DNA of 64,000 bases. It comes from Agarophyton chilense. Lineage: Eukaryota > Rhodophyta > Florideophyceae > Gracilariales > Gracilariaceae. The notes under the pieces were generated by a model. That model saw only the letters and a program-made list of their open reading frames with translations. It did not search any database and had not been told where the DNA came from. Below are positions 41,357 to 61,861 of this stretch, piece after piece (position 1 is the first letter of the stretch; every line of letters starts with the position of its first letter). Made by a program: the position numbers and the translations under genes. The stretch lies in NCBI GenBank assembly GCA_030374765.1, contig JARGXX010000006.1, positions 620,001-684,000 on the forward strand, read 5' to 3'.

Positions 41357-41948
41357 TGTGGAGCAAAACCCGGCGACGGGAAGTGCTCTCAAGGTGTTCG
41401 AAGCCTTGCTCCCTGCGGGAGGCAGACTCAGAGACAGAGCCCTCTGTTCCACCCGTAGTGTGGGGTGTAACTCCCACGGGGGATTCCGGCAGTACCGACG
41501 GAGGTGAGGGGTAGAAACCGTTGGGTCGGGAATGGGTATGGGTATCCCAAAGAATGGGGGAAAATCCGGCGAAGAGGAAAAACGGGGCGAGGGTCGGGCA
41601 CTGACAGGCACCGGACCCAAGAACCAAAAAAGGGCGAAACAACAAAAAGAAACCCAATACAGGGGCGAAAACCTGTCTTCGAAAGGAAACACAAAAAGCA
41701 CGCAACAAGTAAGCAGAAACCCCACGGGGTATCGTGCACGCAGGTCGTCTGAGCGGTCCCAAGGGGGTGGATGCACGGAACCCAAACGTGGGCACTCTTC
41801 AAGTGGAGTCGTGTCCCTACGCAGGCGTTCCTAACCAGAGCCCGTTCCGGGTTGTAAGGCCGAAACGATGGCGACGAAGAACCTCTAAAGGTATCGAAAA
41901 CCAACCTTGGTTCCCCTTTACTCTGAGCTTCGGACTGTCAGATCTCGT
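41357..41948 (-). repeat. G2 3' LTR, distal part
   Basis: 592 bp matching 60939-61530. Interrupted after CTCGT by the G1 insertion; continues at 50744. Confidence 0.9.
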
Positions 41949-42813
41949 TGAAGAGCAACGTCCTCCAAGGAGGTTTCTCGGGACTTAAGTTTTTTCCGGA
42001 GCCTCCGGCGTGCAACCTCGTTATGAGTAGGAGTAATCCGTTTTCACGGCGACACCCGGAACGCCGGTGATGCACCGGCGGGACCGGGTGCCATACACGT
42101 GGCCGCAGCGCCCGCGCGACACGTGGCCGCGAGATTGGCCCCTTTTGTTAGACGGACATTTAGCTATTTAGGATAGCCTTTATTTATTCTATTCTACGGT
42201 GACTACAGTACTTAGGCCGCCGATCTCGCGGCCGCCGGTCCAGTAAAGTCTCCCCAACAAGGGTGATCTTGGTCTTCCAGATCTTGGCTCTGGGTCGAAC
42301 CGCCTGCGCGGATATACAACTCCTTACGGAGGGATTTTCCGTGGTGCACGGCTTCCCAACCCCCTTGGACGTTCAAGCAGCCTTCGTGTGTTGGGTACCT
42401 ATTCCCACTTTCGTGGTTCCGCCCGTGTATACGGTTTGCTACACCCGGCAGTGCCGGCTATTCTCGAGTCCCCTCTCAAGACTCGTGGTCAACCTTGCCC
42501 TCTTGCCTCCGTTCCCATTTTCCTTCCCTTTTCCTCCCCTTCATTGGGCAATTCCCGCTCTTGCGGCTCGCACTGACACCTGTCGTGCTCGCCACTCTCG
42601 TGGGTTTTGCCTCCTCAGAGGATACGCAAGCACCGCTTCGGCGGATATTCTCGGCTTCTTTCAGCCTCCCTGCGCCCGTCGCGACGGTTCGGCTCTGGCT
42701 TACACCCGGCATTGCGCGCCGATCCCTGGGAGGGCTCTACCGCGCCGGTTACCTCGTGAGAGGAAGATCCGGACGTCTTCGTAGGTTTTCCCCCTTGGGG
42801 GCATTGTCCTACA
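41949..42813 (+). repeat. G1 5' LTR, 865 bp
   Basis: Runs TGAAGAGC to CCTACA. Carries two CACGTGGCCGC copies (about 42097 and 42123), the first within GCCATACACGTGG, and an AT-rich TTTATTTATTC patch near 42180 as a possible TATA region. Confidence 0.92.
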
Positions 42814-42816
42814 AAT

Positions 42817-42834
42817 TGGTCTCCCGACTTAGAA
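42817..42834 (+). promoter_or_regulatory. G1 primer-binding site
   Basis: TGGTCTCCCGACTTAGAA, three bases after the LTR. It would pair with a tRNA 3' end reading GGGAGACCA; which tRNA is not determined. G2 has the same site with one change. Confidence 0.65.
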
Positions 42835-42936
42835 GTCAAGACCGTTTGTGTCCTCTCTGAGGTTGTTTTCCGTTTAACGGGTTTTCTCTGGTCTCACCGG
42901 TCTGCTTTCTATTCTTCTGTCGAGACGGTGTGGCCA

Positions 42937-45048
42937 ATGCCAAGGAAACCGCCTAGCATGGAGCCTCCTGCAACACGCAGCCGTTCCCGCCAAAGCGGTG
43001 ATGCCAGGGGCACTGATGTTCCACAGGCCCTGGCTCCAACACCGGCTTCCCGAGAGATACCGGTCACCGGCACTGAAGACCCGCAGCCCGATTCCGGGTT
43101 AACGACCGTCGCAACGGTGGTTTCTCCGCCTCCGCGGTTGGTCGACCAAGCGCGGATTGTACGCTTGGAAGAGCAGCTCCGCTCCCTGCGGGCTGCTCAC
43201 AATACCCTCTCGAGGGAGTTCACCTCTTTACGAGGAAGCCTCGCTAACCCCCCTACAAGTGAGTTAGCCGAGGATATCCGCGTATTGCGGTCGGACGTCA
43301 ATACACTACTCGAGTGTTTTGGCGCTCCGTCTTCCTTCGCAGAAGGTATGGAGAATCGCTTCGAGCGTCTCCGAAGCCGACTTGAGTCGGTCGAGAGGAC
43401 GTTAACCTCGCCCGCGAACGCGGCTAGACCGGTTGTCTCTCATAGAGAGACCCAGTCGCGGAACCGGAAGAGCCGAAAGAACCGGGATTCTAACCGTAAG
43501 CACGGACACCCGTCCAACTCATCATCTGAGTCGGACGGTAAACCGGGTGACTCGGAGAGTTCCGATTCGTCGGTGAGCGATGACCCACAGGATCTTTATG
43601 GGCGCTCTTCCCGCTCAAAGCGGTCCTCTGCCACCTACGGGGCCATCCGGTCGCGCCCCAAGGGTCGGCGACATCCGGGCCTCAAACCCTTGAAGCCCAC
43701 CAACCCTCTGTACAGGACACTCCGGTCCTACCGGTATTACCGGCTAGAAGATTCCTCTTTAGGTCGGACACCGCGTGACACGGGTAAAGTGAAAGACTGC
43801 ATCAAGCGGATGCAGCTTTCACTTCGTAACCAGTCATTTACTGGGGATGATCCAATTCTCGTCTTGGATTTCCTACACCGCTTTGTAGCGGAAGCCGATA
43901 TACTCGGAATGAAGGAAGGACAAGCCTACGTGGCGCTACCCTACTTTCTACGGGGTGTCGCTGAAGATCAGTTTTTGTCGGTTCGGGGCTCGTCGCGAGC
44001 CTCCGAAGGAGGTGTGACCTGCTGGCCCGAGGCCGTGCAGTACCTCCTGCGTTCCTACGCAACCAACACCGCGATACAAGCGGCGATACTCGCTTTGCGA
44101 GACACTCGACAACGCTCCGGCGAGCTCGAGACCGATTACTCGGTACGCCTGAAAAAGGCTTTCCACCGTTGTGGTAATGTATACCCCGCTGGGGAACGCT
44201 GTACGATGTTTCTTGATGGCTTGGATCAAGCCATCAAGACTCTTGTCGCCCGTTACAGGGAACAAGAGCCGAAGGTGACCTACCTTGAACTCGTACAGTT
44301 TGCCCGCGCAGAGGGAGATGCACTACGTGCACGCAATCCGGGAACCCGGTCGAAGGCCGCTAAGGCATTGCTGCTTGAGTCGGACTTTTCTTCACCGTCA
44401 TTTGCGACGGATGGCATCCCCAAACAGGGTTATGACAATATGAATGTCATCCATCACGATGGTTTATCTATTCCGACAACGGAATTACCGTCTACGATGG
44501 ATGGCTCGGTTGACTCAACCGCAAGGGACACGGAGAACGGGCAGGTCTTTTATCTTAATGACCGCCGCACTCTGGCCCCCCTTATGCCGTACTCGAACGG
44601 AATGACACGAAGTCAGCGCCCTGGATGGGTTGGAAACCGGGAACCCGGAAGATACACCGATGCTCGGAATGCCGTACCGCGAAACGCGGGAGTGACGTTG
44701 GTGTGCCACTTGTGCTACGAGCGCGGGCACACTTCCCCGCAATGCCTTTTATCGCTACGCGATATGGCGCGAGTGGTGGATAATTACGAAGCCCTCTCCC
44801 CGCAGGAGAAGGGCTCCGTGCCACTCACGTCATATCTCCGCGCGAAGACGGACTTCCCCAACGCATTAGCTCACACTCCGAATTCTCGGTACAAACCGGC
44901 TCAGCCGGCACGCGCCGCACCAGCGCCAAACCACGCTGATGGATCTCAACCCGCTCTTGCGGTAGCTACCATGCAACGGAATCATGCACTCGTTGCCGAG
45001 GAAGTCGGGCCTTCGCCCGACCAAGACCCTGTACAGGGAAAAGAATAG
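42937..45048 (+). CDS. G1 gag polyprotein
   Basis: 703 residues from ATG 42937; a GTG nine bases upstream is not needed. N-terminal low-complexity arginine/proline part, then a coiled coil (VRLEEQLRSLRAAHNTLSRE, about residues 75-100), a serine/acidic stretch, and the capsid-like region with RTLRSYRYYRLED, QLSLRNQSFTGDD and VRGSSRASEGG. A CCHC zinc knuckle CHLCYERGHTSPQC lies near residue 590. Forms the particle and packages RNA. Its capsid stretch is closely alike in G2 and in the old relic at 3857, so it is the best marker for the family. Ends at TAG 45046-45048 just after a slippery heptamer. Confidence 0.9.
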   Translation: MPRKPPSMEPPATRSRSRQSGDARGTDVPQALAPTPASREIPVTGTEDPQPDSGLTTVATVVSPPPRLVDQARIVRLEEQLRSLRAAHNTLSREFTSLRGSLANPPTSELAEDIRVLRSDVNTLLECFGAPSSFAEGMENRFERLRSRLESVERTLTSPANAARPVVSHRETQSRNRKSRKNRDSNRKHGHPSNSSSESDGKPGDSESSDSSVSDDPQDLYGRSSRSKRSSATYGAIRSRPKGRRHPGLKPLKPTNPLYRTLRSYRYYRLEDSSLGRTPRDTGKVKDCIKRMQLSLRNQSFTGDDPILVLDFLHRFVAEADILGMKEGQAYVALPYFLRGVAEDQFLSVRGSSRASEGGVTCWPEAVQYLLRSYATNTAIQAAILALRDTRQRSGELETDYSVRLKKAFHRCGNVYPAGERCTMFLDGLDQAIKTLVARYREQEPKVTYLELVQFARAEGDALRARNPGTRSKAAKALLLESDFSSPSFATDGIPKQGYDNMNVIHHDGLSIPTTELPSTMDGSVDSTARDTENGQVFYLNDRRTLAPLMPYSNGMTRSQRPGWVGNREPGRYTDARNAVPRNAGVTLVCHLCYERGHTSPQCLLSLRDMARVVDNYEALSPQEKGSVPLTSYLRAKTDFPNALAHTPNSRYKPAQPARAAPAPNHADGSQPALAVATMQRNHALVAEEVGPSPDQDPVQGKE

Positions 45049-45070
45049 AGGGAGTCTCCCCTTCGGGAGA
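45036..45070 (+). promoter_or_regulatory. G1 -1 frameshift cassette
   Basis: Heptamer G GGA AAA in the gag frame (45036-45042), one codon before the gag stop, then a hairpin TCTCCC-CTTC-GGGAGA (45055-45070). The protease frame continues at -1. Confidence 0.6.
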
Positions 45071-47718
45071 GGCGTCCTCAGAGTTGAGGCTGACGACGCC
45101 CGAGGCGCCGATGCCTCGCTTCCCGGTGAAAATCCTGACAAGGAAGGACACCGCAGACGCGGACTCTAAACACCTCGGTGTTTTGCGTCGACCGTGGATA
45201 CGGATTAGAAATAACCGGATCCCGGATAGAGTCTTGGTAATGGCCAAGCGTAACTACAAGGTTTACGCTGACCTTGGTCTGCACACGCAGTTTATGGTGA
45301 GATATCTCACGGTCCTGGATACAGGTGCCGGGCCGAACTTTATTGTGGAATCGGTTTTACCCCCCGCCATTGCGGTCACTCATCCGTTCTGAAACGGTAC
45401 CCGACGTCTCAGACGCCAATAACAACCCGTTGAAAACGGTTGGTGTGATCGATCTAATCGTCAGGCTAGGGCGGATGGTGGTTAAACTAACTTTTATTGT
45501 GTGCCGCTCTCGGGTCGCGCCAGTTATACTGGGATGTGACTACTGCCACAGGTTTGTCGACGCCATCCTCCCACGCCTTAAGCAGGTGGAACTTGAGGAC
45601 GGATCGACCGTCCCCATTGTTCGTCAACCGCTGAAGCGGGCATCGAGGAAACACGTTCCTCTACCTGCTGCGCAGGAACCCACACCAGCGAACCGGGATT
45701 CTACGAAGCTACGTGTCGACGAGTCGATTTGCATTCCGCCAAAGTCCCACTCTTTGGTGCGTGTCAGTTCTCGTCAGCACGGTACTCGAATCGTTCGACC
45801 GATACCATCACTGTCGAACAGGCATCAACTCGCTTTCGCGGATGGAATGGTTCACATTGAGCCCGACAAATCGTTTTGTGTATGTGTGTCCAACTCTGGA
45901 CAGAAACACCAGTATCTGGTTAGGAACCAAGTCATTGGAAGAGTTGGTCCTCACCCCATGTCTATCTTTACCATTCAAGGGGATCGTACCGGTTCAACCG
46001 GAATGGGTCACTCTGAGGAGGGAGATAATCTCGTCGGAGGTCCCCAGTCTACGCTGAACTTATCCACACTGCCGTGTGTGTCGCCACCAGCAGTACTGGT
46101 TAAGTTATCCAATGGTTCTTGGATTGTTGTCATCGACTACCGTCGGTTCTGTAAGACTGGCGTCGGAAAGATACCACCTGAGTTGGTGAATTTCAAAGCC
46201 CAACCATTGCTGGATGGGCTACCGAATTGTTCGGATCATGGGAGTTGCTGGAACTCGTGGCTTTCAGTAATGCCTTCCGCTGTTCAGCGTTCGATGGCCT
46301 GCATACGCCCAAGGGGCAGAGGAGGGCCATTTAACAGAACTCTGGATGCTTCAGCCCCTCGCAACGAGGACAGTTCTCAGAATCCCTCGCATATTGCGGA
46401 AGTTCCCGTTTCTACGGTAGGGCTAATCTATCCCATCCAGATGGTTGCTTTACCCGCCAATAAGCGATTCCCGCTCTATAACCCACCCGTGGGACTCTCT
46501 GATATACCGATTCCATCGGACGCTGGCCTGAATGGCCTTTCTTCTCTCACGCCACTGTGCGGTGTCTATCCCCGCCAGTTGGGCGCTTCTACCACTCTCT
46601 ATGTCGCTCCGTCTAAGGAGGGGGAGGGGACCCGCTCAATCGCGGAAGCATCGCCGTCGCAACGGAAGTTTATCCGGACACCACGGGCAAGGCCCCCGAG
46701 CGGGCAACCGGCATCGTCGCCGGACGCCAATCCGCTCCCGCGGGACGCTGCGGTCAACCCGACCGCCACGCAACCCCGCAAGGGGGACCAAGGCGCTCGA
46801 AGACCCGAAGCCGGGAAGCGAGACCCTACGGACGCTCCGCATCGCGTGGAAGCAACTGAGGGCTCCCCGCACATTCGCGGTCTCACACCGAGCGTTTCAG
46901 TCGATACTGGTACTCCGGCGGGCGCTGCGCAAGCAGGTTTAGCGAGCCACTCCGTTGAGAACGGTACGAACCCCATGGGGGAAAAGGGGCGCGACGACAA
47001 GTCGAAAACCGCCTCCCTTGCCGAACAATCGGAGCCAACCGTCCGCGACGGCCCGACCACCCGTCCTCAAGGTCACGTGATCCGGGCGGGAGATCGGACC
47101 AATGGGCACCCGGCATCCCGGTCATTGGCTGACAGCCACCCCGCGGAGGCGGATCGCCGGGACGGTGAACCACTCACCGCCCACGGCGCACCGCACAGCG
47201 GAAACTGCCCACCAATGGGAACGCAGCATGCCGCAAAACAAGCGGCGGCCTCCGGCGAACCGTCACCAAGACGGAAGGACCCCCGCAAACTCGCGGTAAG
47301 GGCGGACTTCAGGGAAGCCCCTACCGCCAAGCGGAAACACAACCCGGCCGCGCCGGCAACTTCCGCGAAGCGGTACGGCAGCCCTGGCAACCCGGCAACA
47401 ACCGCAGAGCGAAATGACAGACCGGGTGACCCGGAACAGGCGACGACGAGCCCAGCACCACGCGGCGCTGAGGCTCGGTTCACCACCACCCGGCCAGGCC
47501 GGCAAGTTTACGTGCAGGAGTACCTCCTCGACCGAATCGTCGGACATAGCTACGATGGGCACGGGGTGCTCCAGTACCGGACCCGCTGGTACGGATACGG
47601 GCCGGAGTGGGACACTTCGGAGCCCATCGAGCACCTCCCGCGCTCTGCGGTAATGCGATACCACCGCCTTGCAGGGACTGCACTCCCAGCCACGCTGATA
47701 AACGCCCAAGAGCGATAA
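45045..47718 (+). pseudogene. G1 pol remnant: protease region to chromodomain, no RT/IN
   Basis: Begins in the -1 frame. The protease part carries TVLDTGAGPNFI (catalytic DTG) and breaks at a C-run near 45360, where a one-base change moves the rest into another frame. That frame then stays open for about 790 codons: protease end and linker (GCDYCHRFVDAILP, DGMVHIEPDKSF), a tiny RT vestige (LVKLSNGSWIVVIDYRRF, about 46098), a proline/arginine-rich region, and a good chromodomain (VQEYLLDRIVGHSY, RTRWYGYGPEWDT, EPIEHLP; 47512-47650). No YxDD, RNase H or integrase core exists. Long openness after such a deletion suggests it was shaped as a shorter protein, or that the deletion is recent. Confidence 0.75.
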
Positions 47719-48051
47719 ACCGTGAACACGGAATGGAATGGTTGATGGCGCCACGCGCCATCTCCGTCCATGCGCCAACGCGGGGAAGGAAGCAACCGCT
47801 CACGCTATCCCAACGTCGTGGGTGGTCGTGCCAGTTACCTGGTCCGCGCGCGAAGCGCCTACCGTTAAACACGGAACTCCCAGCTAGGCTGGTTCCCTGC
47901 AACGCTGGAACCCCGGTAGAAGGCCGGTACTTCGGAAAGAAAGAAGCGGACTTTGGAAAGGGCGTCGGAAAGGCGACCCTCTTCTTTTTATTTCTCACTA
48001 CTGGCAAGGGCGCCCTAGTGGCGCCGCCCTACATTCTACCGGAAGCTCCGG

Positions 48052-49827
48052 TCATTCCTCCGCACGAGGTGGACCCCCGCCCAGGCGGTTGGCTAAGGCA
48101 TCCCGCATGGCGGCCACATCACCCGAGATCTCGGAAGGGCGAAGCCCCACCTCCCGAAGGAAGCGCGCGATGACCTCGCCCCGCTCCGCCCCAGCGGCGG
48201 TTGCGGGCGGGCCCGCCACCGATGGAGTCGGATAGGAATCCGTTCGCACGGCATCAGCAGCCCCGGATGGAGCCGCACCGCCGTATTCAACGGACTCCTC
48301 ACCGGCCTCGCCGTACTCGTCACCCTCCATCGGAGCATAACCCGGATCCTCCGGTTCGTTGTCGACCATCGGGTCACCATCCGCATAGTCGCGGTAATAG
48401 TCGGTCGAGTCGACATACACTCGCGGGTGGTCGGCCGGGACTTCACGCGGTGCATGCCGGTTGGCTTCCGCTTCCTCGCGGCTGATCTCGTGGTAGTCCC
48501 AGGGGTCGAAGTAGATGAAATCCCCCGCTAGCGCGGTATTCCTCCCGAATCCGGGGCCAGACCCGCGACGCGGTTGAATGCGTTGGGAGTTCTCCAGCGG
48601 GACCTCATCCCACTGGACCCCCTCGACAAAGTCGAGGAGGCCCAGCATCTCTTCTTCGTTCGCCTCGCCCCCGAGGGGGATGCGCATCTCCAAACGACGG
48701 ATCGCAGCCCGCGCACGCGGTGGCACGTACCACAATCGGTATTGGTCGTACGCCTCAGCGAGGATAAAAGCTGCAGTGCGGACGGCCCATTCGCTTACCA
48801 CGACGGACCACCACCCCGACTGGGGATCGTTCAAGAACGACGACCCTACATAGTTGAAGACTGGGGGCAGCTCAATGAAGCAACCCCAGCACGCCTCCAA
48901 GGAGGACCACCAGTCTGGGAGACTGACATACCGACCACGTCGGTGAGCAGGCGCCATGCGCTTACTCTCCGTGTTCTGGTACGTTACGAAATACCCGGTC
49001 CGGGCCCGCCAACGCCGCTCATCGCGGATGAAGTTCTGAGGGAAGTTCGAGCGCGACTGTCGCGGTTGGTAGCGGAACTCTGCCCGAAGAATCGGTCGTG
49101 CCCAGCAAAGGGCTTCTTGCCGAGCGATCGGTGTGCCCCTCCAAGCGAGGGTTTCCAATCCGTTAAGATGGTCACAGTACGACATTTCCCCGCGAGTGCG
49201 GTAAAGGTGGACGTCGAATTCGATCTTTGGCGGTATCGGGAATTCGAAAGGCGCCCGATGGTGCCTGAGGTAAGCGATCCGCACAAGCGCGGCCTGAGCC
49301 TCCGCAGAGGATTCACCGCGTCGGCGGAGTATGTGGTGTACCGGGATGGCGATGCGATTACGCCAATCCCAGGACATGGTCACCACGCCGGGCAGGTCGC
49401 CCGGGAGCATCTCCGAATGGTCGGTGTAGGATTGGATCAAATCCTCGTCGCGGACAGCCAATGGGTGAAACCAAGGCGCATACCGCAACATCGCGGAGCC
49501 ATGCCGAGTTCTCGGATTTGCACCCACAAGGGCGTCGAAGGTCGGCCACTGCGGTGGGTCCGCCTGTCCGCGAAAGCGGGCGCCAATACGGCGGTCTTCG
49601 TACGCGAGGTTGGTAACATCCCCAGGGTAGGGCGCGGACCGGAAGCCGGTGGAACCGCCAAGGGCGGGAGTCGCAGATGTGTTATGACGGTCGGGGTTGG
49701 ACATGGTGCGTGTTGGTGTGCTGTGGTTGGAATCGGATGCGGAGAGCGTGCGTGGGATCCTTGGTGAAGGTGTGTTGGTTTCCGGAGACCCGGTGTCAAA
49801 CGCGCTCTTATCATGACGAGCTGCCAT
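48052..49827 (-). CDS. G1 antisense ORF, unknown conserved protein
   Basis: 591 residues on the strand opposite to G1, intact, ATG at 49827 only 46 bp from the 3' LTR; its stop is 333 bp from the pol stop, tail-to-tail. No family recognised. The N-terminal 115 residues are serine/threonine/proline rich and look disordered. Residues 117-415 form a conserved core shared with 51627-52480: FHPLAVRDEDLI, RRRGES, YRTRGEMSYCDHL, RPILRAEFRY (244-253), WWSSLEACWGCFIELPP (306-322), DPQSGWWSVVVSEWAVR and RLWYVPPRAR. An acidic tyrosine-rich stretch (440-520) and a short C-terminal helix (GEVIARFLREVGL) follow. No signal peptide, membrane segment or metal-binding cysteine pattern. Comparable in position to antisense genes of plant Tat-type retrotransposons, but not recognisably related. 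Confidence 0.8.
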   Translation of the reverse strand: MAARHDKSAFDTGSPETNTPSPRIPRTLSASDSNHSTPTRTMSNPDRHNTSATPALGGSTGFRSAPYPGDVTNLAYEDRRIGARFRGQADPPQWPTFDALVGANPRTRHGSAMLRYAPWFHPLAVRDEDLIQSYTDHSEMLPGDLPGVVTMSWDWRNRIAIPVHHILRRRGESSAEAQAALVRIAYLRHHRAPFEFPIPPKIEFDVHLYRTRGEMSYCDHLNGLETLAWRGTPIARQEALCWARPILRAEFRYQPRQSRSNFPQNFIRDERRWRARTGYFVTYQNTESKRMAPAHRRGRYVSLPDWWSSLEACWGCFIELPPVFNYVGSSFLNDPQSGWWSVVVSEWAVRTAAFILAEAYDQYRLWYVPPRARAAIRRLEMRIPLGGEANEEEMLGLLDFVEGVQWDEVPLENSQRIQPRRGSGPGFGRNTALAGDFIYFDPWDYHEISREEAEANRHAPREVPADHPRVYVDSTDYYRDYADGDPMVDNEPEDPGYAPMEGDEYGEAGEESVEYGGAAPSGAADAVRTDSYPTPSVAGPPATAAGAERGEVIARFLREVGLRPSEISGDVAAMRDALANRLGGGPPRAEE

Positions 49828-49861
49828 GCCGACTTCCTCTTCGAGGTGTTCGCCCTGTCTT

Positions 49862-49873
49862 AAGGGGGGTATA
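49862..49873 (+). promoter_or_regulatory. G1 polypurine tract
   Basis: AAGGGGGG (49862-49869) just before the 3' LTR; the primer for plus-strand DNA synthesis. G2 has CTTAAGGAGGGGGAGA at the same place. Confidence 0.7.
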
Positions 49874-50738
49874 TTAAGAGCAACGTCCTCCAGGGAGGTT
49901 TCTGGGGACTTAAGTTTTTTCCGGAGCCTCCGGCGTGCAACCTCGTTATGAGTAGGAGTAATCCGTTTTTACGGCGATGGCCGGAACGCCGGTGATGCAC
50001 CGGCGGGATCGGGTGCCATACACGTGGCCGCAGCGCCCGCGCGACACGTGGCCGCGAGATTGGCCCCTTTTGTTAGACGGACATTTAGCTATTTAGGATA
50101 GCCTTTATTTATTCTATTCTACGGTGACTACAGTACTTAGGCCGCCGATCTCGCGGCCGCCGGTCCAGTAAAGTCTCCCCAACAAGGGTGATCTTGGTCT
50201 TCCAGATCTTGGCTCTGGGTCGAACCGCCTGCGCGGATATACAACTCCTTACGGAGGGATTTCCCGTGGTGCACGGCTTCCCAACCCCCTTGGACGTTCA
50301 AGCAGCCTTCGTGCGTTGGGTATCTATTCCCACTTTCGTGGTTCCGCCCGTGTATAAGGTTTGCTACACCCGGCAGTGCCGGCTATTCCCGAGTCCCCTC
50401 TTGCGACTCGTGGTCAACCTCGCCCTTTTGCCTCCGTTCCCATTTTCCTTCCCTTTTCCTCCCCTTCATTAGGCAATTCCCGCTCTTGCGGCTCGCACTG
50501 ACACCTGTCGTGCTCGCCACTCTCGTGGGTTTTGCCTCCTCAGAGGATACGCAAGCACCGCTTCGGCGGATATTCTCGGCTTCTTTCAGCCTCCCTGCGC
50601 CCGTCGCGACGGTCCGGCTCCGGCTTACACCCGGCATTGCGCGCCGATCCCTGGGAGGGCTCTACCGCGCCGGTTACCTCGTGAGAGGAAGATCCGGACG
50701 TCTTCGTAGGTTTTCCCCCTTGGGGGCATTGTCCTACA
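49874..50738 (+). repeat. G1 3' LTR, 865 bp
   Basis: Same length as the 5' copy. Its first bases read TTAAGAG instead of TGAAGAG. Ends CCTACA before CTCGT. Confidence 0.92.
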
Positions 50739-50743
50739 CTCGT

Positions 50744-51074
50744 CTCCCTAAGTAGGGCCCACTAACTAAACTCTACTAATTACAGTAGTGCACACCTGCT
50801 CAAGGCCATACACGTGGATATCCCACTGTCAGGGCCCAAAAGTTCAACGTTCTAACAAATATCCGAAAATCGGTGCCGAAATTAAGCCACGTGTATCACG
50901 CGGCCAATCCAACCATGGGCCATCCGAATTTTCACTTCATAGGCGAACTCTAACCAGAAAACAGTGCCACCTCAGCAGACCTTAGAGGGGATCATAGTCA
51001 TAACCCTCGGAGGGTTCAATCCTCATTCTATGAGTTGCATCTTCAAGTATTCCCTAACTGGGCGTTGCTCTACA
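50744..51074 (-). repeat. G2 3' LTR, proximal part
   Basis: 331 bp matching 61531-61861. Together with 41357-41948 it totals exactly 923 bp. GCCATACACGTGG at 50805-50817. Confidence 0.9.
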
Positions 51075-51090
51075 TCTCCCCCTCCTTAAG
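51075..51090 (-). promoter_or_regulatory. G2 polypurine tract
   Basis: Minus-strand CTTAAGGAGGGGGAGA directly before the 3' LTR start TGTAGAGC. Confidence 0.75.
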
Positions 51091-51155
51091 ACGAGGAAGA
51101 ACATTCCGAGCCGCGGGTGTCTCGCTTTCCGGTCACTATATATACTTCTCTCCCA

Positions 51156-53012
51156 ATGGGGTCCTTCACCACTTCTGAGGATCGCCACAAAACCGGCACA
51201 TCGGTACAACTTTCTTCTACTCCTCCGACTTCGGGCGATAAGCAACTTCTTGCAACAGCAGTCTCAACCAGCCCTCTCAAGGGAATGAACCCATACGTCA
51301 TCAACCCACTCTCGGGGCCGTCGGCCTCCGCGCCGGCGGACAACGAAGCTCCCCAGCAGGGTGGATATTTCTCCGGTTTTGATGCGGCTCCGTCAGGTAC
51401 CGAACCTTCCGCCTCGGCGAGCAACCGACATCCTCAGGAGGATTTGGACACTAACGCGGTGGCGTGGAACTCCGCTCATGCGATGCCCTTGGTAGCAAAC
51501 TCCAGAGGTTGGATCTCAAACGAATCCTTTCGAAGGTGGAGTCCCCTTACCGATCCGGTGATATATTCCCGCGCTCCGTAGTTCCATCCGACAGCGGTTC
51601 GCGACGATGAGCTCATCAACTCCTACGTGGAGGACGGCTTATTGCCGGGTGGCCTACCTATTGAGGTGGTACGTTCTCCCGATTGGAGGGCGCGGGTAGC
51701 CATAGAGCCTCAGTATCTATACCGCGGTCGCGGGGAGTCCCTGGACAAGGCGCGCGCAGCGATGGCGGCTCTGGCCTACCAGCGATTGGAGAGGTCATGC
51801 TTTGACCATCTGGTTCCCCCGGAGTACGGGTTCGATGTCGCCTATTACCGCACGTACGGTGAGGTCTCCTACGGGGATAACCTGGCAGCCTTTCCCGAAG
51901 CCGAGTTCCGCGGACCGGGTTTTCCTCTTCGAGAAGATATGCTCCAATGGAGTCGTCCCATCCTTCGGGCTGAATTCAGGTACCTTCAACGGCAGTTTAC
52001 CCAGTATGGGTTCGATCGATGCGTGCGCTTCGAGCGCCGCTCGCGCTCCCGTTTCGGGTTCCTTGTCCCATATCCTCACGTGGAACTGGAGCGTATCCGT
52101 AACACGGCGAAGGTTGGGCGATTCGTGCCCCTTCCAGCTTGGTGGAGTATGGTCGAGGTCCCCCGAGGGTGCTTTGCTGAACTGCCCCCGTGCATCTACT
52201 ACATCGGGTCTCGTTTGATGCACGACCCGAACTCGGGATACTGGGCCCTCGTTACAGCCGAGTGGGCAGCCCGCGTAGCGGCGCACCTCCTCTGGGATGC
52301 TCATGACTATTTCCGTATCTGGTATATTCCTCCGATGCTACGGACCATCATGCGTCAGATCGACCTTGTCCCAGCGTTGGGTTCGGTCAGCAACGTGCAG
52401 GACCTGCATCAAATCTTGGACGTGATCGACAACACCCAATGGGATCGAGTTCCAGTGGAAAATCAGCCCGCAGGGGAAGGATCCGCGCGAGACAAGTCTC
52501 CTGGCCGGTACGATCCGGGCTCCGGTAACTGGGTCTATTACAATCCCTTCGAAGGGGTTCGCGTCAGCGCGGCGCAAGCACGGGCGCTGATTGACTCGCC
52601 TCGACCGATGCCGGTGGGACACCCGACGGGGTTCATTTATACCGACGATTACGAGTACGAGCCTCCAGTAGACCTGGACGATCCAGCGTTGGATAACGAC
52701 GTGCCAGCTCCTAGTGGAGTACTCCCTGTGGAGCCATCTGCACCCTTCCAACCAGTGGGAATGACCTCAGCTGCGGCGGCGAATGCATCCGGTGGCGGTC
52801 CATCTGCTCCCTCCGGGTGGGGTGTGAACACCCTTGCGCAGGCGCCGGTTGCCACTCCGCAAGCGGATAGTGTGCGACAAGGCCTCGTGAACGCGGGCAT
52901 TCCGATTCCCCCGGGTATGACGGATGTGAGCCACATGTTGGCTTTCGCCTCGGCGTACAATCAGGGTCAGAATCCCAACGGTGGGGCGGGTCCCTCCTCG
53001 GGCTTTCTGTAG
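51156..53012 (+). pseudogene. G2 antisense ORF, one amber codon
   Basis: Homologue of the G1 antisense protein, also opposite to its host element. One frame runs from ATG 51156 to TAG 53010-53012, about 618 codons, interrupted only by TAG at 51579-51581. The next residues FHPTAVRDDELINSY align with FHPLAVRDEDLIQSY of G1, where the residue at the TAG is W119, so TGG became TAG. The core is well conserved: RGRGES, YRTYGEVSYGDNL, RPILRAEFRYLQRQ, WWSMVEVPRGCFAELPP, DPNSGYWALVTAEWAAR, FRIWYIPPMLR. The C-terminal helix (SVRQGLVNAGIPIPPGM) is also shared. The N-terminal part is serine/proline rich as in G1 but not alignable. Otherwise unbroken, so the loss is recent or the codon is read through. Confidence 0.75.
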
Positions 53013-53355: not shown

Positions 53356-53646
53356 TTACCCGACTTGGGCACGATCCAGACTTGGAGGCAAGGATACGCG
53401 AGCGCGTCGGTGATATGATAAAACCTTAGACATCGGAAGGTGCTCAATGGGTTCCACTGTATCCTCATCAGGCGAGAATCCGTACCATCGGACTTGGTAG
53501 CGGACTTCTCCCTCGGGGGTGTAGATGTGACGCACGATGCGATCGATAACGAATTCCTGCGGGTACACTTTTCCCTGTTCGGGCTTCTCTTCCATCTTGG
53601 AACGCTCTAGTTCCCTTGAGGGTGTCAACGTAGGGTCTAGACACAC
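53356..53646 (-). CDS. G2 chromodomain segment
   Basis: The C-terminal end of G2 pol, separated from the main frame by a frame change and stops between 54146 and 53646. Contains QEFVIDRIVRHIY, RYQVRWYGFSPDEDT and EPIEHLPMSKV, the aromatic and acidic pattern of a chromodomain. In chromoviruses it steers integration to particular chromatin. It could be expressed only if the intervening frame is intact in the functional ancestor. Confidence 0.8.
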   Translation of the reverse strand: MCLDPTLTPSRELERSKMEEKPEQGKVYPQEFVIDRIVRHIYTPEGEVRYQVRWYGFSPDEDTVEPIEHLPMSKVLSYHRRARVSLPPSLDRAQVG

Positions 53647-54145: not shown

Positions 54146-57100
54146 CTATTCCCATTCCATAACGGAGAGCCAAATTTGGTCAACCTCGTCGTCGAGATCT
54201 TCCCCGTGCGGGTCCGCTGACACAGCTCGTTCCCGAGAAAGCGGGGTTTGAGTGTGCGACACCTCAGTGTCTCGTCCGCGGCGGCGGGTGATCGTCGGCT
54301 CTGTAGGCGTTCCGGGTGCGGAGTTCTCCACACGACTCTCCCTAGGCGGTTTTTCGTCATCTTTTCTGACGTCGTGCTCGGCTGGGTCGGCGGTGATGTC
54401 GCTACCCATACGCTGGGGTTGTGACTTCTCGGTCGCGGGCTCGGTCCGGCTCGCCGTATCACTGTGAGAACTAGATTCCCTGTTAGGGCGACTGGCTGAC
54501 GCCGAAACATCGTGCTGCGAAGGAACTAAGTCCTCCTTCCCCTCCTTAGGCGGAGAGCCAGGAGCCTTGATTACCTCCGGTGGGGGAGTAACTCTGTAAG
54601 AGTTCGTTGACTGGGCCCTTGAGGGAGCGGGCCCAGGTTCGGGGGTATCCGAAGTTTCCGGTAGGTCGGTTAAACAACGTTCCGGGTGCGGAAGTATAAC
54701 GGGGCGGGTGTTCGAATCTCCGCCTGACGGGTTAACTTCCGTTGAATCATCCCCTGTGGAGGGCGTTGGTGCCGACACCACTTCCACATTTGGGTTGGGC
54801 GCTCGTGTGATGCGGTCCCTGGAGATCCGTTCGTGGCGGTTAGCGATATCCAATACCACCGTGTCCGGGTCTACAGAAACCACACGATAGGGTCCGTCCA
54901 CAATTGGCGAAAGCTTGTGCCTACGTTCCTTTTCAGGATTGTAGTATTCCTTTCGAAGGAAGACGAAGTCGTCGGGCTCCACCTGAGGTAGAGGTTTGCG
55001 AACCCGATGGTCAAAGTCCTTCTTGTAGGCGCGTTGAGCTTTGTCCATTGCTTTCCGGGCTATCGGCACCATCTTCGTAAGCCACTCCTTCCAGGCTTCT
55101 CGGTACAATCCCGGTGACGGGTACGTCGACAGCGTCGGTTGAGCCTCGATGGCGACCGGCGGCGGTGTCCTTGACAGTACCAGTTCGAATGGGGATAACG
55201 ATGTAACCCGATGTACCTGGGTGTTGTATGCATACGTGATAGCGTCTGTGTACAAGTCCCAATTTTTGGGGTGATCCGCAACATACGATCTCAAAGCGTT
55301 GAGTATCGTGCGGTTAAACCTCTCCACCTGGCCATTCCCCTAAGGGTGATACGTAGTAACAAATAAATTCCTTACATCAAGGATTCGACATACATCCTGA
55401 AAGAACTTTGATGCGAATTGCCCTCCGTTGTCGGATAACAACTGCACCGATGGTCCATATACAAACACCCAATGGGTCACGAACGCTTGCGCGACGGTAG
55501 CGGCGGTGATCCGCTTCAGCGACACAGTTCTCGTTAGCTTAGAGAATCTGTCAGAAATGACAAGCAGATACCGATGACCTCGGGGCGTCCTGATAAACTC
55601 CCCTAGGATGTCTATGGCCACGAACTCGAGTGGAGCCCGTGCCGGGAACAGCGTCAACTTCTTAGAGTGCTTCCGAAGTTTGACGTCATTCTTGGCGCAA
55701 TTGGCGCAGGCCCGTCTGACGGAGTAACAATCGAATGCCATTGCCGGCCAGTAAAAGTTCCTTCTCAACGTGAGGTACAGTTTTCTTCCCCCGGGGTGGG
55801 CGCCAACCTTCACATAGTGAGTGAGATGTAATACCCTCTGTTGTAGGGTGTGCGGCACCACTATCCTCGGGCGAGGTCCAACGGTCCTGATTAGGTAACC
55901 CTGATCGTCGTCCTCGAAAGGTAACTGAAATCCTCCGTTGAGGCGAGCCCGAATCTTTGTACAGAATGGGTCGAGCTGTTGCTCGCGTATCATCTCCTCT
56001 GGAGAGATAGGTATAAAAGAGCCGGTCGACGAATCCAGACTCTCGTTGACGAGTATATCGTCACAAACATCATCCGTCAGCGGTTGAGCTCCTCCCTCGA
56101 GGTCCGATACCATAAAACATGGGATGTCATCGTCCTCGTAGGGTTCCGTTTCCGCTGTGGTTCCCAAGCGGGATAGTGCATCAGCCTGAGTGTTCAGCTT
56201 CCCTTTATTGTACAGGATCTCAAAGTCGAATTCCGACAGTCGGAGACGCCAGCGCATAAGGCGGCCCGAGGGTTCGGAGATCTCCAGGAGCCAACGCAAG
56301 CATGCGTGGTCCGTATGGACTTTGAAACGAGTACCCATCAGATAGGGGCGAAGTGTAGCTAAGGCCCACACAACGGCTAAACATTCTTTCTCGGAGACCG
56401 AGTAGTTCCTTTCATGAACCTTCAGGGAGCGTGACCAGTACCCAATAGGGTGACGTTCACCATCCTCAGAGGATTGGAACAGTACACACCCTACTTGGTT
56501 TGCACTATCATCGGTGCCCACTTCGTAAGGGAGCCCAGGATTGGGTAGAGCCAAGATTGGCAGTGGTGTTACGGCATTCACCAGTGCCGTGAAGGCAGAC
56601 GCTTCCGCGTCGCCAAAAGGTTCCAGTTCAACTGGTTGTCCCTTCGTCAGGAGCCTGTTGAGGGGGGTGGAAATATCCGCAAAGTTCGGGACGAATCGGC
56701 GATACACGTTACACAGACCTAAGAAGGATCGCAACTCCGTTTGAGTTTTCGGGTGTTTTGCTTTCTTCAAGGATTTCACTCGTACTTCATCGATTGAAAG
56801 CTGTCCGGGACGGATGATATGACCCAGATACTTAACCGAATCGGTGAAAAACTCGCAGTTCTTGAGTTTCAAGGTGATTCCCGCGTCGCGGAGTATCTTC
56901 ATTACGTCCCTGACGTGTTCGAGGTGGTCTTCCAGGTTGTTGGAGAAGACAATAATGTCGTCTAAATACACTAGACACGTCCTCCACTTGAAGGGAGCCA
57001 ACAGAATGTCTATCGCCCGTTGAAACGTTGCGGGGGCATTTGTCAACCCAAAAGGCATCCTCCGGAATCGGAAAAGTCCTTGATGACACACGAAAGCCGT

Positions 57101-58678
57101 TTTGTCTCGATCTTCCTCCCTAATAGGGACTTGCCAGTAGCCCGAATTGGCGTCGAGGGTAGAGAAAACAGTAGCGCTCCCAAGGGAGTCGATGTATTCG
57201 TCCATCCGAGGGATCGGGTACACATCCTTAATGGTTACCTCGTTCAGGCGTCTGTAATCGATGCAGAAACGCCACGATCCATCCGGTTTCGGAACTAACA
57301 CCACTGGTGAGGCCCAAGCGGACTGGGCTGGTTCAATTACGCCCGCTTTAAGCATCTTCTCCACCTGAGATTTCTCCTCTTCCCGAGCTTTCGGTCCAGC
57401 CCTGTAAGGGTGTTGGGCAATAGGCCGAGTGTTCGGTAACAAGTCGATGCGGTGTTCTGTAATCCCAGTAGTTCCAGGGGAACCATCCCACATGGGGGTA
57501 AATTCACGAAGCATGTGCCTCAGCTTCTCCCGATGAGAGGCGGGTACATGGTTGAGATCCCATTTATCCAATTCCTGAACAGGATTCGTCTGGTCTGCTC
57601 CTGTGATAGGGGTCGTAACCTCCTGAGGTTTAAAGTTTTCAGCGTGTGGAGCTGCAGTCGTATGCTCACCGTCTTCCGCGATTTCGGCAGTGTCCTTCCC
57701 CTCCTTAGGGTCCGCCACACCAGGGACCTCTGCGATAGATATATTTGTAGGTTCGACCGCATGCGGGTGTGGAAGAACAGAACCCAGGATCTGGTGTTTG
57801 ACCAAATGCTGCGTTGTCTTTCCAAAGTGGGCTACCAAAACCTTGAAAGGTTTATCCGGTTCCACGGAGACAACCCCATTCGCAAGGGCAAGTTGACGCC
57901 GCGTATACAGAGACGGGTTTGGTTGTACCACATGCACACCAATTTGCTTGGTAACAACTGTGACCCAAACCTGGGTTTTTGGCGGGATAGCCACTGACTT
58001 CGCAACCTTTACCCGTGTAGACACCGGGTCCTTCTTCAAAGATTCCTGCGCGACAGGGAGAGGAACGCGTGTTCGCGCTGCTCCCTGTAAGGGTTTACGA
58101 ACGATTGGGATCGTAGACCCGTCTTCGAGTTCCACAGTTCTATTCCGAGGACGGATGGCTTCCACGAAGCGGTCGCAAAAGTCACAACCCAGTATGACTT
58201 GTGCTGCAAGTGACTTGCATGTAATAAACTCTAGCTGAACGAGATAGGAGCCTAACCTCACCATGAGGGAAATTGTACCCAGTGTCCGTAGCGGGTTGTT
58301 GTTCGCATCGGCGATATCCAAACGTGGACCGATACGAACTTGAACCCGGAGCAGCGGGGGTAACAATTCAACATGAATTAAGTTAGGAGCGGCTCCTGTA
58401 TCCAGGACAGATATTTGACGAACCATAAACTGGTTGGTCAGGCCGAAGTCGGCGAATACTTTATAATTCCGCTTGGCCATTACCATAACTCGATCCGGAA
58501 TACGGAGATTACGGGACCGTATCCACGGGTGACGGAGGACACTAAAGTATCCCGAGTTAACGTCGGTGTCAGCCGTTCTCCTTGAAAGGATAGTCACAGC
58601 TGGGGAGCGAAGCTGGAGCGCCTCGGGCGTCTTCAACTCCGGCTTAGAAGACGTCCCTCCCGCAGGGGAGACTCCCAA
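54146..58678 (-). pseudogene. G2 pol: protease, RT, RNase H, integrase; one amber codon
   Basis: About 1510 codons in the -1 frame relative to gag. Protease VLDTGAAPN (DTG at about residue 93). RT with LVPKPDGSWRFCIDYRRLN and catalytic YLDDIIVFS (571-574). RNase H with TDDSANQVG, SVSEKECLAVVWAL and TDHACLRWLL. Integrase with an HHCC finger (HYVKVGAHPGGRK, CANCAKN), core D in IDILGEF, D in LLSDNGGQFAS and E in QVERFNRT. The only stop is TAG at 55342-55340, in YHP-stop-GNGQVERFNRT, where a glutamine (CAG) is expected. The frame ends at 54146 in a low-complexity tail before the chromodomain. One repair away from coding capacity, hence young. Confidence 0.9.
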
Positions 58679-58690
58679 GTTTAGTTTTTC
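58655..58690 (-). promoter_or_regulatory. G2 -1 frameshift cassette
   Basis: Minus-strand G AAA AAC (58690-58684) immediately before the gag TAA, then a hairpin of the form TCTCCC-CTGC-GGGAGG (about 58671-58656). Pol is open in the -1 frame across the gag stop. Confidence 0.6.
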
Positions 58691-60711
58691 GAAGCGGACC
58701 CCACCGAATTCGGTGCAGCTGCCTCGAAGGGGACCGGTTGTTCCCCATTCGCGGGTACAAGTTCTGTATCCCTGTCAGCAAGGTGAGCTCGGAGTATCCT
58801 TTGTTCCTCATAGGACCTACTCGGGACTCGAGCTTTCTCCTCAGGGGTCAGAGTCTCGTACTGAGCGATAATTCGTGAACCCTCCTGCAGGGGAAATGTG
58901 CAGTCTGGTGCTTCGTGACCACGGAGGTAACACAAATAGCAAATCAGCTCTGCCGGGTTCGGTAGTGGACGTGAATCCACGCGACGTGGTGCTGTATCCC
59001 TCCGTCCGGGGCGAGAGAACCGAGCAGCGGTATTCGCAAAAGGTAGCGATGCGGCTGGCACCCTCCGTCCTTGGGTATAGAGCGCAGGGTCTTCATCCGT
59101 AGTCGGAGCGGATATCGACGGCAACTCAGACGTACCCATAGACTCGGGGTTACTTCCCATGAATTGAATGTTATCATTGACCCCCACAGGGGCAGGGCCT
59201 CCTGCGAGTGACAAAGACGAGTTACCTCCATCGGCGAGGAGTGCACGTGTCGGCCGACTCTTTCGGTTCTGCCGGGCACGGAGAGTATCCCCCTCAGCCT
59301 GGGCATACTGAACCAGTTCCAAGTAGGTCAGCTTGCGCTTCTCTTCCCGATGTCGGGCAACCAATGCCCTTATCGAGGGGTCCAAACCATCCACAAACAT
59401 GGTGCATCTCTCGTAGGCGGGGAATACATTCCCACATCGGTGAAACGCTTTATTCAAGCGAGTTGAATACACCGTTTCGGTTTCCATCGGCTTCTCCCGC
59501 GTATCCCTTATTGCAAGGATTGCTACCTGAATCGCATTTCCAGTAGCGTATGACCTCAAGAGGTACTGCACCGCTTCGGGCCAGCACGTGACTCCCCCTT
59601 CCGAGGCTCGGGATGATCCACGGACGGAGTTGAACTGGTCTTCAGCCATCCCCTTTAAGAAATAGGGTAATGCAAGATACGCTTGCGCTTCACTCATACC
59701 GAGGATGTCAGCCTCCTGGACGAACCTCGCAAGGAAATCGAGCACCAGAATTGGGTCTGTTCCTGTGAACTCCCTCTTCTGTAGGGTGATGCTCAGCCTT
59801 TTGATGTAGTCCTTGACCTTACCCGTTCCGCGGGATGTTCGATCTCCCGAAGGGTTATCCAACCGGTAATAGCTGTACGATAGCAGCTTCCGATAGAGAG
59901 GATTCGTCGGCTTCAGCTCCCTTAATCCAAGGTGTTTCCTACCCTTCTTCCGGGTACGGATTGCCCCTTGAGAGGTGTAAGTAGCATTCGACCGAGTCGC
60001 CCGGGATGACCGGCGTCCATCTTCACTATCCGAAGATTCGGAGGACGAACTCGATGACGAGCGATTGGGATCGGAATCCGATAAATCCTCTTGGAGGTGA
60101 ACCCTCTTCTTGGACTTGCAGCGGTCCCGTTTAGCGGAGCGGTGTTCTTCGTCTTCCGAAACGTCGGGTTTATCCTTCGAGGATTCTGTGTCTCCGTCCA
60201 TACGGATAATGGCCTCGAGGGTGTCCAGCCGAGCTCGGAAGCGTTCCGCTTGCACGCGGTGTTCCTCCACGAGGCTCCGGTACTCCTGGATAAAGACCCC
60301 AGGGGTACCAAAGCTTTCCAAAAGGAAGTTCACACCCCTCCTCAGGGTACGAAAGTCATCGGCGACTCCCCGCACATGGGCGTCCTCCACCTTGCGGCGG
60401 AGGGTAGTAACCTCCTGAAGGAGCTTGACGTGAGCCGCGTTGGCGATATCGATTCGAGTCTCCAGGCGCTGTAATTCAGGGTCGGCCCGACTTCGGGGTG
60501 CTGCTGAGGGGGTCTCCACCACTGGAGCTGGGCCCACAGCCACGACCTCTCGATGACCTGAAACCACTGAGGGTGCTTTCCGAGTGTCCGGATCGATACC
60601 GGAATCGTTCCGGACTTCGGGAATTGAGCTCCTCGACCTAGGCGGGGCCGAGGGCACTGAATCCGCTTGACGGTTCGATCCAGTCCTGGAACCACGGGTA
60701 GGCGGCGACAT
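58681..60711 (-). CDS. G2 gag polyprotein
   Basis: 676 residues, intact, ATG 60711. Low-complexity start, coiled coil (LQRLETRIDIANAAHVKLLQ and following), acidic/serine stretch, capsid region with RKLLSYSYYRLDN, ITLQKREFTGTDPILV and VRGSSRASEGG, and a CCHC knuckle CYLCYLRGHEAPDC near 591-604. Ends TAA 58683-58681 with pol in the -1 frame. Clearly related to G1 gag but diverged, especially at both ends, so the two elements are different subfamilies. Confidence 0.9.
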   Translation of the reverse strand: MSPPTRGSRTGSNRQADSVPSAPPRSRSSIPEVRNDSGIDPDTRKAPSVVSGHREVVAVGPAPVVETPSAAPRSRADPELQRLETRIDIANAAHVKLLQEVTTLRRKVEDAHVRGVADDFRTLRRGVNFLLESFGTPGVFIQEYRSLVEEHRVQAERFRARLDTLEAIIRMDGDTESSKDKPDVSEDEEHRSAKRDRCKSKKRVHLQEDLSDSDPNRSSSSSSSESSDSEDGRRSSRATRSNATYTSQGAIRTRKKGRKHLGLRELKPTNPLYRKLLSYSYYRLDNPSGDRTSRGTGKVKDYIKRLSITLQKREFTGTDPILVLDFLARFVQEADILGMSEAQAYLALPYFLKGMAEDQFNSVRGSSRASEGGVTCWPEAVQYLLRSYATGNAIQVAILAIRDTREKPMETETVYSTRLNKAFHRCGNVFPAYERCTMFVDGLDPSIRALVARHREEKRKLTYLELVQYAQAEGDTLRARQNRKSRPTRALLADGGNSSLSLAGGPAPVGVNDNIQFMGSNPESMGTSELPSISAPTTDEDPALYTQGRRVPAASLPFANTAARFSRPGRRDTAPRRVDSRPLPNPAELICYLCYLRGHEAPDCTFPLQEGSRIIAQYETLTPEEKARVPSRSYEEQRILRAHLADRDTELVPANGEQPVPFEAAAPNSVGSASKN

Positions 60712-60938: not shown

Positions 60939-61861
60939 TGTGGAGCAAAACCCGGCGACGAGAAGTGCTCTCAAGGTGTTCGAAGCCTTGCTCCCTGGGG
61001 GAGGCAGACTCAGAGACAAAGCCCTCCGTTCCACCCGTAGTGTGGGGTGTAACTCCCACTGGGGATTCCGGCAGTACCGAAGGAGGTGAGGGGTAGAAAC
61101 CGTTGGATCGGGAATGGGTATGGGTATCCCAAAGAATGGGGGAAAATCCGGCGAAGAGGAAAAACGGGGCGAGGGTCGGGCACTGACAGGTACCGGACCC
61201 GAGAACCAGAAAAGGGGCGAAACAACAAAAGAAACCCAATACAGGGGCGAAAACCTGTCATCGAAAGGAAACACAAAAAGCACGCAACAATTAAGCAGAA
61301 CCCCCACGGGGTATCGTGCACGCAGGTCGTCTGAGCGGTCCCAAGGGGGTGGATGCACGGAACCCAAACGTGGGCACTCTCCAAGTGGAGTCGTGTCCCT
61401 ACGCAGGCGTTCCTAACCAGAGCCCGTTCCGGGTTGTAAGGCCGAAACGATGGCGACGAAGAACCTCTAAAGGTATCGAAGACCAACCTTGGTTCCCCTT
61501 TACTCTGAGCTTCGGACTGTCAGATCTCGTCTCCCTAAGTAGGGCCCACTAACTAAACTCTACTAATTACAGTAGTGCACACCTGCTCAGGGCCATACAC
61601 GTGGAGATCCCACTGTCAGGGCCCAAAAGTCCAACGTTCTAACAAATATCCGAAAATCGGTGCCGAAATTAAGCCACGTGTATCACGGGGCCAATCCAAC
61701 CATGGGCCATCCGAATCTTCCCTTCATAGCCGAACTCTAACCAGAAAACCGTGCCACCTCAGCACACCTTAGAGGGGATCATAGTCATAACCCTCGGAGG
61801 GTTCAACCCTCATTCTATGAATTGCATCTTCAAGTATCCCCTAACTGGGCGTTGCTCTACA
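60939..61861 (-). repeat. G2 5' LTR, 923 bp
   Basis: Uninterrupted copy running TGTGGAGC to CTCTACA on the plus strand. Contains GCCATACACGTGG at 61592-61604, also found in the unrelated G1 LTR. Confidence 0.9.

Follow-up and report, generated by a model that had tools for sequence, protein, structure and literature searches.

Introduction

Long antisense ORFs between pol and the 3' LTR have been described in Retand, a plant Ty3/gypsy lineage that includes non-autonomous members. These ORFs encode a TRP28 domain (PF04195), are kept across families and have no known function; TRP28 is reported from flowering plants only (PMC11963269, accessible text). Retand is a non-chromovirus according to the same text, whereas the red-algal ORF analysed here lies opposite chromodomain-like sequence. 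LTR retrotransposons can also carry env-like or extra ORFs on the sense strand, downstream of pol (PMC11963269, accessible text), and these resemble the present case in placing an extra gene between pol and the 3' LTR. The red-algal gene differs from them in being on the opposite strand, and a hydropathy scan of five of its proteins revealed no transmembrane-like segment.

Two further antisense genes, hbz and asp, are retroviral and are situated among sense genes or over them, whereas the red-algal gene has its own space. Both hbz (HTLV-1) and asp (HIV-1) are driven from the 3' LTR (PMC10186651, accessible text). The red-algal gene would likewise be read inwards from a 3' LTR, putatively, and a regulator is the proposed product; the likeness drawn here is one of arrangement. 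Chromoviruses have gag-pol in an order that includes integrase, with chromodomain-like sequence downstream. The red-algal elements share this layout, but add an antisense gene of about 500-620 codons.

A first-pass annotation of a 64,000-nucleotide stretch of the Agarophyton chilense genome (the window) noticed this gene in two elements, G1 and G2, and knew of none described for algal chromoviruses. Our searches of the open-licence literature agree: the papers listed included none on an antisense gene in algal chromoviruses.

Results

Structure of the two elements

The features of G1 and G2 in the window are as follows.

41944..41948, no strand: target duplication CTCGT, left of G1 (5 bp)
41949..42813, + strand: G1 5' LTR, ends placed by eye from the flanks
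42928..45048, + strand: G1 gag, 706 aa, 48% identity to G2 gag
45325..47718, + strand: what remains of G1 pol, namely the protease region and a chromodomain at the C-terminus (about 47530-47661)
48052..49827, - strand: G1 antisense ORF, 591 aa, intact
49874..50738, + strand: G1 3' LTR; about 50 bp lie between its inner edge and the start of the antisense ORF, which is beside the polypurine tract
50739..50743, no strand: target duplication CTCGT, right of G1 (5 bp)
50739..51074, - strand: G2 3' LTR, common to G2 and a second, truncated tandem G2 copy
51156..53012, + strand: G2 antisense ORF from the first ATG, interrupted by a single TAG at 51579-51581 and open over 51627-53012 (461 aa)
53365..53571, - strand: G2 chromodomain-like stretch, 54% identical to the chromodomain region of G1; separated by about 350 bp from the 3' end of the antisense ORF
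54146..55327, - strand: C-terminal part of G2 integrase, SH3_Tf2-1-like (E 0.14, below cut-off)
55340..58678, - strand: G2 pol with RT, RNase H, and integrase zinc-binding and core domains
58681..60711, - strand: G2 gag, 676 aa
61526..61861, - strand: G2 5' LTR, from self-comparison

In both elements, a long ORF runs opposite to the sense genes, between the chromodomain region and the 3' LTR, as the first-pass annotation had it. The sense genes of G1 (gag, protease region, chromodomain) are on the + strand and its 591-codon antisense ORF is on the - strand, free of stops; G2 has the converse arrangement. The G2 antisense frame is open from about 51090, apart from the single TAG, and the length of about 618 codons given earlier agrees with that of the ORF from the first ATG in an intact G2 copy (L010, 618 residues). 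The G1 protein aligns to the open 461-residue part of the G2 protein over 367 residues with 40% identity (E 2e-78).

The LTRs of the two elements differ in length (about 865 bp in G1, 336 bp in G2), and self-comparison at E 1e-5 found no similarity between them. G2 pol matches the G1 copy in the window over pol residues 2-346 only, meaning that this copy lacks RT, RNase H and the integrase core while retaining the antisense ORF. A second G1 copy (L002 + L069) likewise gave no RT match. G1 is thus RT-less in both copies viewed over their length, and still occupies at least 74 genomic places; gag, the protease region, the chromodomain and the antisense ORF are all kept in the copies read. Comparison of the pol remnants of two G1 copies gave an anomalous pS (0.25), which carries no weight in the analysis.

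Both elements belong to Ty3/gypsy and, as judged by chromodomain-like sequence, are of chromovirus type. This assignment is provisional. Chromodomain-like sequence lies opposite the antisense ORF in all 14 loci compared (seven G1, four G2 and three G3, a third subfamily introduced below), and in G2 copies it is found downstream of integrase. The G2 and G3 stretches have 47-58% identity to the G1 region and are on the strand opposite to the antisense ORF. However, the Pfam Chromo match of G1, where the integrase core is missing, scores 21.1 (E 0.0003) against a curated cut-off of 25.1.

A gene family in three subfamilies

The antisense ORF is a member of a gene family rather than a chance frame, given that G1-type sequences are found at no fewer than 74 genomic places (92-100% identity; 48 of those listed have no internal stop) and G2-type sequences at 92 or more (60 of those listed have no stop within the 461-residue query), some of the listed places being near-identical tandem copies. 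A third subfamily, G3, carries the same ORF; two of its copies (L039, L040) have a stop in the N-terminal part. The placement known from Retand, antisense to gag-pol and between pol and the 3' LTR, recurs here: all 14 loci have the ORF on the opposite strand, and at the 11 from G1 and G2 an LTR also lies next to the ORF; no LTR was seen beside the ORF at the three G3 loci. Of the G2 pol copies listed (41), 19 are followed at a distance of 2.3-3.1 kb by a listed ORF, in every case on the opposite strand. The other 22 have no partner among the 118 ORF places compared, which comprise the 92 G2-type places among the matches listed and 26 picked from the matches listed in the search that revealed G3.

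Protein searches found relatives in Gracilariopsis chorda and A. chilense. The gene is probably old, because the tree places G. chorda proteins on the side of G1 (P0003 and P0005; support 100/100) as well as on that of G3 (P0016; support 100/99).

Selection on the protein

The first-pass annotation had proposed selection from retention across diverged subfamilies, and the comparison between subfamilies supports this. Protein identity is 0.34-0.35 (pN 0.47-0.48) despite synonymous sites near saturation (pS 0.73-0.78), in sequences that were chosen to be open in the ORF frame, with G3 taken only from behind its N-terminal stop. The wobble-matched opposite frame of this set has 13-20 stops.

Selection within G2 is more weakly supported. 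In 48 G2 copies, shared changes gave an omega of 0.55, a value as extreme being reached in 1 of 2000 simulations, but singleton changes were near neutral (0.91), and stricter subsets were weaker: 0.64 for changes in at least three copies (195/2000) and 0.67 for 18 copies fetched only via a distant query (150/2000). Outside the core, omega for shared changes was 0.73 in the N-terminal part (328/2000) and 0.71 in the C-terminal part (504/2000). All G2 copies had been selected as the best protein hits, a choice that biases these omega values downwards. Control frames gave 1.14 and 2.10. We rejected opposite-strand codon bias as the reason for the open frame, because the wobble-aligned sense frame contains 20-24 stops per copy in the 48 G2 copies; the stops between subfamilies and the control-frame omega values point the same way.

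An orphan protein

The earlier impression that the protein resembles no recognised family was borne out. None of 23 members searched matched a Pfam family above cut-off, and neither Pfam nor comparison with the gags of G1 and G2 revealed a known sense-strand retrotransposon domain (profile comparison with the gags, probability 0.1%, on which we rejected kinship). PF04195 (TRP28) gave no match in 12 members at E up to 10, nor in 23 at E up to 1. A scan of the genome for PF04195 was likewise negative, but carries no weight by itself, since the control genomes gave no signal either. Two weak Pfam matches were below cut-off and are taken as chance, at most as a lead: E3_binding in 8 of 23 members (best 0.029, partial profile, inside the core where inspected) and Ish1 in one of 23 (E 0.092, C-terminal module). 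PHROGs and plasmid sequences gave no match, none of 28 pattern matches in IMG/VR was confirmed, and searches of PDB sequences returned nothing significant (best E 0.53 and 0.44 in separate searches, none in another). AlphaFold models of two proteins were poor (pLDDT 36 and 46), and Foldseek against the PDB gave a best E of 1.6. Nucleic-acid binding is not obvious, since the G1 core, with a pI of 6.7 (5.6 for the complete protein), is not basic.

Discussion

The position and orientation of the ORF, the kinship within its family and the constraint on the protein are established. The antisense product probably serves to control or protect its own element. We favour, at a probability of roughly 40%, a real protein-coding accessory gene whose product would be a subfamily-specific regulator of LTR or RNA, read from the 3' LTR. 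Our best guess, by analogy, is a regulator working like the plant Retand antisense ORFs or retroviral hbz. The gene would have been gained by a red-algal chromovirus-type lineage before G1, G2 and G3 split, and then inherited with the elements. An antisense promoter in the U3 of the 3' LTR may transcribe it, because only about 50-165 bp separate the ORF start from the polypurine tract or LTR edge; a promoter scan of the LTR region was at chance level, using a bacterial-type model that is uninformative for an alga. The product would then act on the LTR or RNA of its own element, raising expression or blocking silencing, with RT and integrase core supplied to G1 in trans. Such specificity would account for the presence of a separate version of the gene in each subfamily alongside a separate LTR, and for the retention of the gene and gag by G1 despite its loss of RT and the integrase core.

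The protein might instead counter a host defence factor, as an anti-silencing or anti-restriction protein that does not act on its own LTR. Retention and diversification of the gene in each subfamily would fit, as would its lysine poverty, which could mean escape from ubiquitin tagging: lysine makes up 0-1.8% of all 18 family proteins (P0001-P0018, many of them close kin), whereas nine other ORFs in the window have 3.4-5.5%. Three representatives contain 14 lysines versus 32 predicted from base composition (Poisson p 0.0003 jointly; 0.006, 0.05 and 0.08 singly). However, GC-rich codons account for part of this deficit and the protein has no matched family or known partner, and we consider this role rather unlikely.

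A particle or structural accessory, associating with gag in virus-like particles, is also unlikely. If such a protein had to be made from the same element, G1 would keep its gene together with gag, as the G1 copies read do, and low-complexity ends flanking a single conserved core would be in keeping with a structural protein. Against this, the protein has neither similarity to the gags nor a transmembrane-like segment, and antisense expression would put it on an RNA separate from that of gag.

We regard as improbable a captured host or mobile-element gene that is now a passenger, selected for a host role or for nothing. Its source could be an unsampled gene, as no relatives outside the family were found, and copies decay nearly neutrally after insertion; but the gene is placed and oriented alike in three subfamilies and is constrained across them, and protein searches of limited reach found no host-gene outgroup. 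That the frame is open by chance or through opposite-strand codon bias has a negligible probability: the wobble-matched opposite frame has a similar pN/pS (0.44 in G1, 0.55 in G2), as any frame sharing wobble positions would, but it contains 20-24 stops per G2 copy, and neither gag nor pol of G2 matches the G1 ORF region.

Returning to the regulator that we favour, red-algal chromoviruses may, as a tentative reading of these sequences, have independently evolved an LTR-specific antisense regulator of an orphan family, kept even by RT-less parasites. The family is an orphan to which no fold is assigned. RT-less G1 is a natural experiment on the functions that such elements cannot borrow. If red algae provide a second, apparently unrelated and old case, then the antisense arrangement arises repeatedly and is worth keeping.

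Arrangement of the elements

The window contains two Ty3/gypsy elements of apparent chromovirus type, G1 and G2, each with a long ORF (the antisense gene) on the strand opposite to gag-pol, between the chromodomain and the 3' LTR:

~41949-50738, G1 element; gag, protease region and chromodomain on the + strand, 591-codon ORF on the - strand
50739-51074 and 61526-61861, LTRs of G2
minus strand, gag-pol and chromodomain-like stretch of G2
+ strand, ORF of G2, interrupted by one TAG

The 5-bp target duplication CTCGT flanks G1 on both sides. G1 sits in a further G2 copy, tandem and truncated (41357-41949, 50739-51074, 60939-61530), at the junction of LTR and primer-binding site. This copy has the LTR at 50739-51074 in common with G2; the same junction is visible without interruption near 61526. 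Remnants of more diverged gypsy sequence, pol (35% to G2) at 9694-11841 (-) and gag at 3857-5430 (+), showed no antisense-ORF relative next to them. Elsewhere in the window, a 429-residue ORF (22660-23949, +) is DDE_Tnp_4 transposase-like (Pfam E 1.1e-25), and a 370-residue ORF (33494-34606, -) without a Pfam match at E 0.01 appears by eye to open with a signal-like segment and close with a cysteine-rich tail.

The antisense gene family

The first-pass annotation regarded the G1 and G2 ORFs as related, and the G1 protein is indeed 40% identical to the open part of the G2 protein across 367 residues. The searched genome (79.8 Mb, 135 contigs) holds at least 74 G1-type and at least 92 G2-type ORF places, some of them near-identical tandem copies. 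A distant query brought out a third subfamily, G3, to which 24 of the 107 matches listed belong, at 37-39% identity; three of its loci were read (L039, L040, L063). At all 14 loci compared (seven G1, four G2, three G3), the opposite strand carries a chromodomain-like sequence past the ORF's 3' end. Among 118 ORF places (92 G2-type matches and 26 chosen from the distant-query matches), at least 19 of the 41 G2 pol copies listed have an ORF 2.3-3.1 kb downstream, in every case on the opposite strand. The named relatives among 17 proteins found come from the red algae Gracilariopsis chorda and Agarophyton chilense, with identity to a G3 copy reaching 91% for the latter; a Gracilariales red alga is accordingly the most likely host.

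Read from its N-terminus, the protein has a variable segment, a ~350-residue core, an acidic or low-complexity linker and a short C-terminal module. It had been said to resemble no recognised family, and profile searches agree: Pfam gave no family above cut-off with 12 and 23 members searched, PHROG none at E 0.1, and the PDB sequences no credible match (best E 0.44). AlphaFold models of family proteins have pLDDT values of 36 and 46, with a best Foldseek E of 1.6. There is no similarity to G1 or G2 gag, and no transmembrane-like segment in five whole proteins (highest 19-residue hydropathy, 0.80-1.45). Lysine makes up 0-1.8% of all 18 family proteins (P0001-P0018, many of them close kin), compared with 3.4-5.5% for a set of nine other window ORFs. 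Base composition predicts 32 lysines for three representatives together, and 14 are present; the arginine content of these three is at or above expectation.

Antisense ORFs are also found in plant Retand elements, which are non-chromoviruses and carry a TRP28 domain in 97% of clusters, according to PMC11963269. The red-algal gene has the same place and orientation, but it lacks TRP28 and, judged by its chromodomain-like neighbour, would belong to a different lineage. We found no account of it in the open-licence literature, the scope of our search, in line with the initial statement that none was known to be described for algal chromoviruses.

Selection on the protein

Between subfamilies, pS is 0.73-0.78 (near saturation), pN is 0.47-0.48 and protein identity is 34-35%. 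Each subfamily was represented by one sequence selected for an uninterrupted ORF frame; that of G3 is the open stretch of L040 following a stop. Codon bias of the opposite strand does not explain the openness: the wobble-matched opposite frame holds 13-20 stops in these representatives and 20-24 in 48 G2 copies, which have 0-2 in the ORF frame. These are the distinct copies from 57 loci (nine repeats dropped), and 22 of them are stop-free in the ORF frame.

Omega was assessed by re-dealing mutations to sites with the same triplet context in 2000 simulations. For G2, the outcome was divided: shared changes fell below 1 (omega 0.55; observed value reached in 1/2000 simulations), whereas singletons did not clearly do so (0.91; 362/2000). 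The shared signal was 0.51 in the core (12/2000), 0.73 in the N-terminal part (328/2000) and 0.71 in the C-terminal part (504/2000), and was weaker for changes present in at least three copies (0.64; 195/2000) and in the 18 copies obtained only via the distant query (0.67; 150/2000). Seven G1 copies (L006 excluded for its shorter match) gave 0.66 for singletons (13/2000) and 0.65 for 13 shared changes (582/2000). One G1 pair, with few changes, has pN/pS of 0.76 in gag and 0.40 in the ORF. Copies were taken as top protein hits, so that sampling favours conserved ones. The sequence comparisons point to selection on the ORF protein, as its retention had suggested; the main basis is the comparison across subfamilies, which the within-family result backs up.

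G1 without reverse transcriptase

The first-pass annotation held that G1 keeps the gene despite loss of RT and integrase, and this is what we find. In the G1 pol remnant (45325-47718), the match to G2 pol is limited to residues 2-346; RT, RNase H and the integrase core are absent, and the ORF is present. A second copy, on contig C111, is seen as two stretches: L069, whose first 4,653 bases match G1 and where the G2 pol match covers only residues 2-308, and L002, the rest of the copy, without a G2 pol match. Between L069 (2-1249) and the window (45355-46602), pS in the pol remnant is 0.25, a value that may include effects of indels or recombination, far above gag (0.03) and the antisense ORF (0.05).

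Because RT is absent from both copies seen over their length, and the other six G1 loci, of which only the 3' part was seen, agree with this structure, RT loss probably preceded the spread of the family, with gag, protease region, chromodomain and antisense gene kept. G1 thus appears to be an RT-less family, yet it occupies at least 74 places, so its mobilisation must come in trans; G2-like relatives, whose LTRs differ, are possible helpers.

Age and possible role

Of 23 family proteins, the 20 that reach 240 residues were placed in a midpoint-rooted maximum-likelihood tree; the three shorter ones were dropped. Gracilariopsis chorda P0003 and P0005 group with G1 (five rows, support 100/100), and P0016 of the same species lies in a 12-row group containing G3 (100/99); P0005 and P0016 fill less than half of the columns, and the G1-G2 join carries a long-branch warning. 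Since Gracilariopsis proteins fall on both the G1 and the G3 side, the subfamily split would predate that of the two genera, unless elements moved between species. Four Gracilaria species alone are dated to ~100 million years in PMC12502185.

In G1, ~50 bp separate the start of the ORF from the inner LTR edge, and in G2 ~80 bp; for G3 the distance was taken to a polypurine-like tract rather than the LTR and comes to ~165 bp. Transcription from an antisense promoter within U3 of the 3' LTR would be the simplest source of its RNA, as reported for asp; hbz is likewise driven from the 3' LTR (PMC10186651). On the leading reading, the product may regulate its own LTR or RNA, or act as a shield against silencing; a component of the particle or an antagonist of host defence is possible but less likely. 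Such a regulator or shield would have to be subfamily-specific, and could then account for the retention of the ORF in the RT-less G1.
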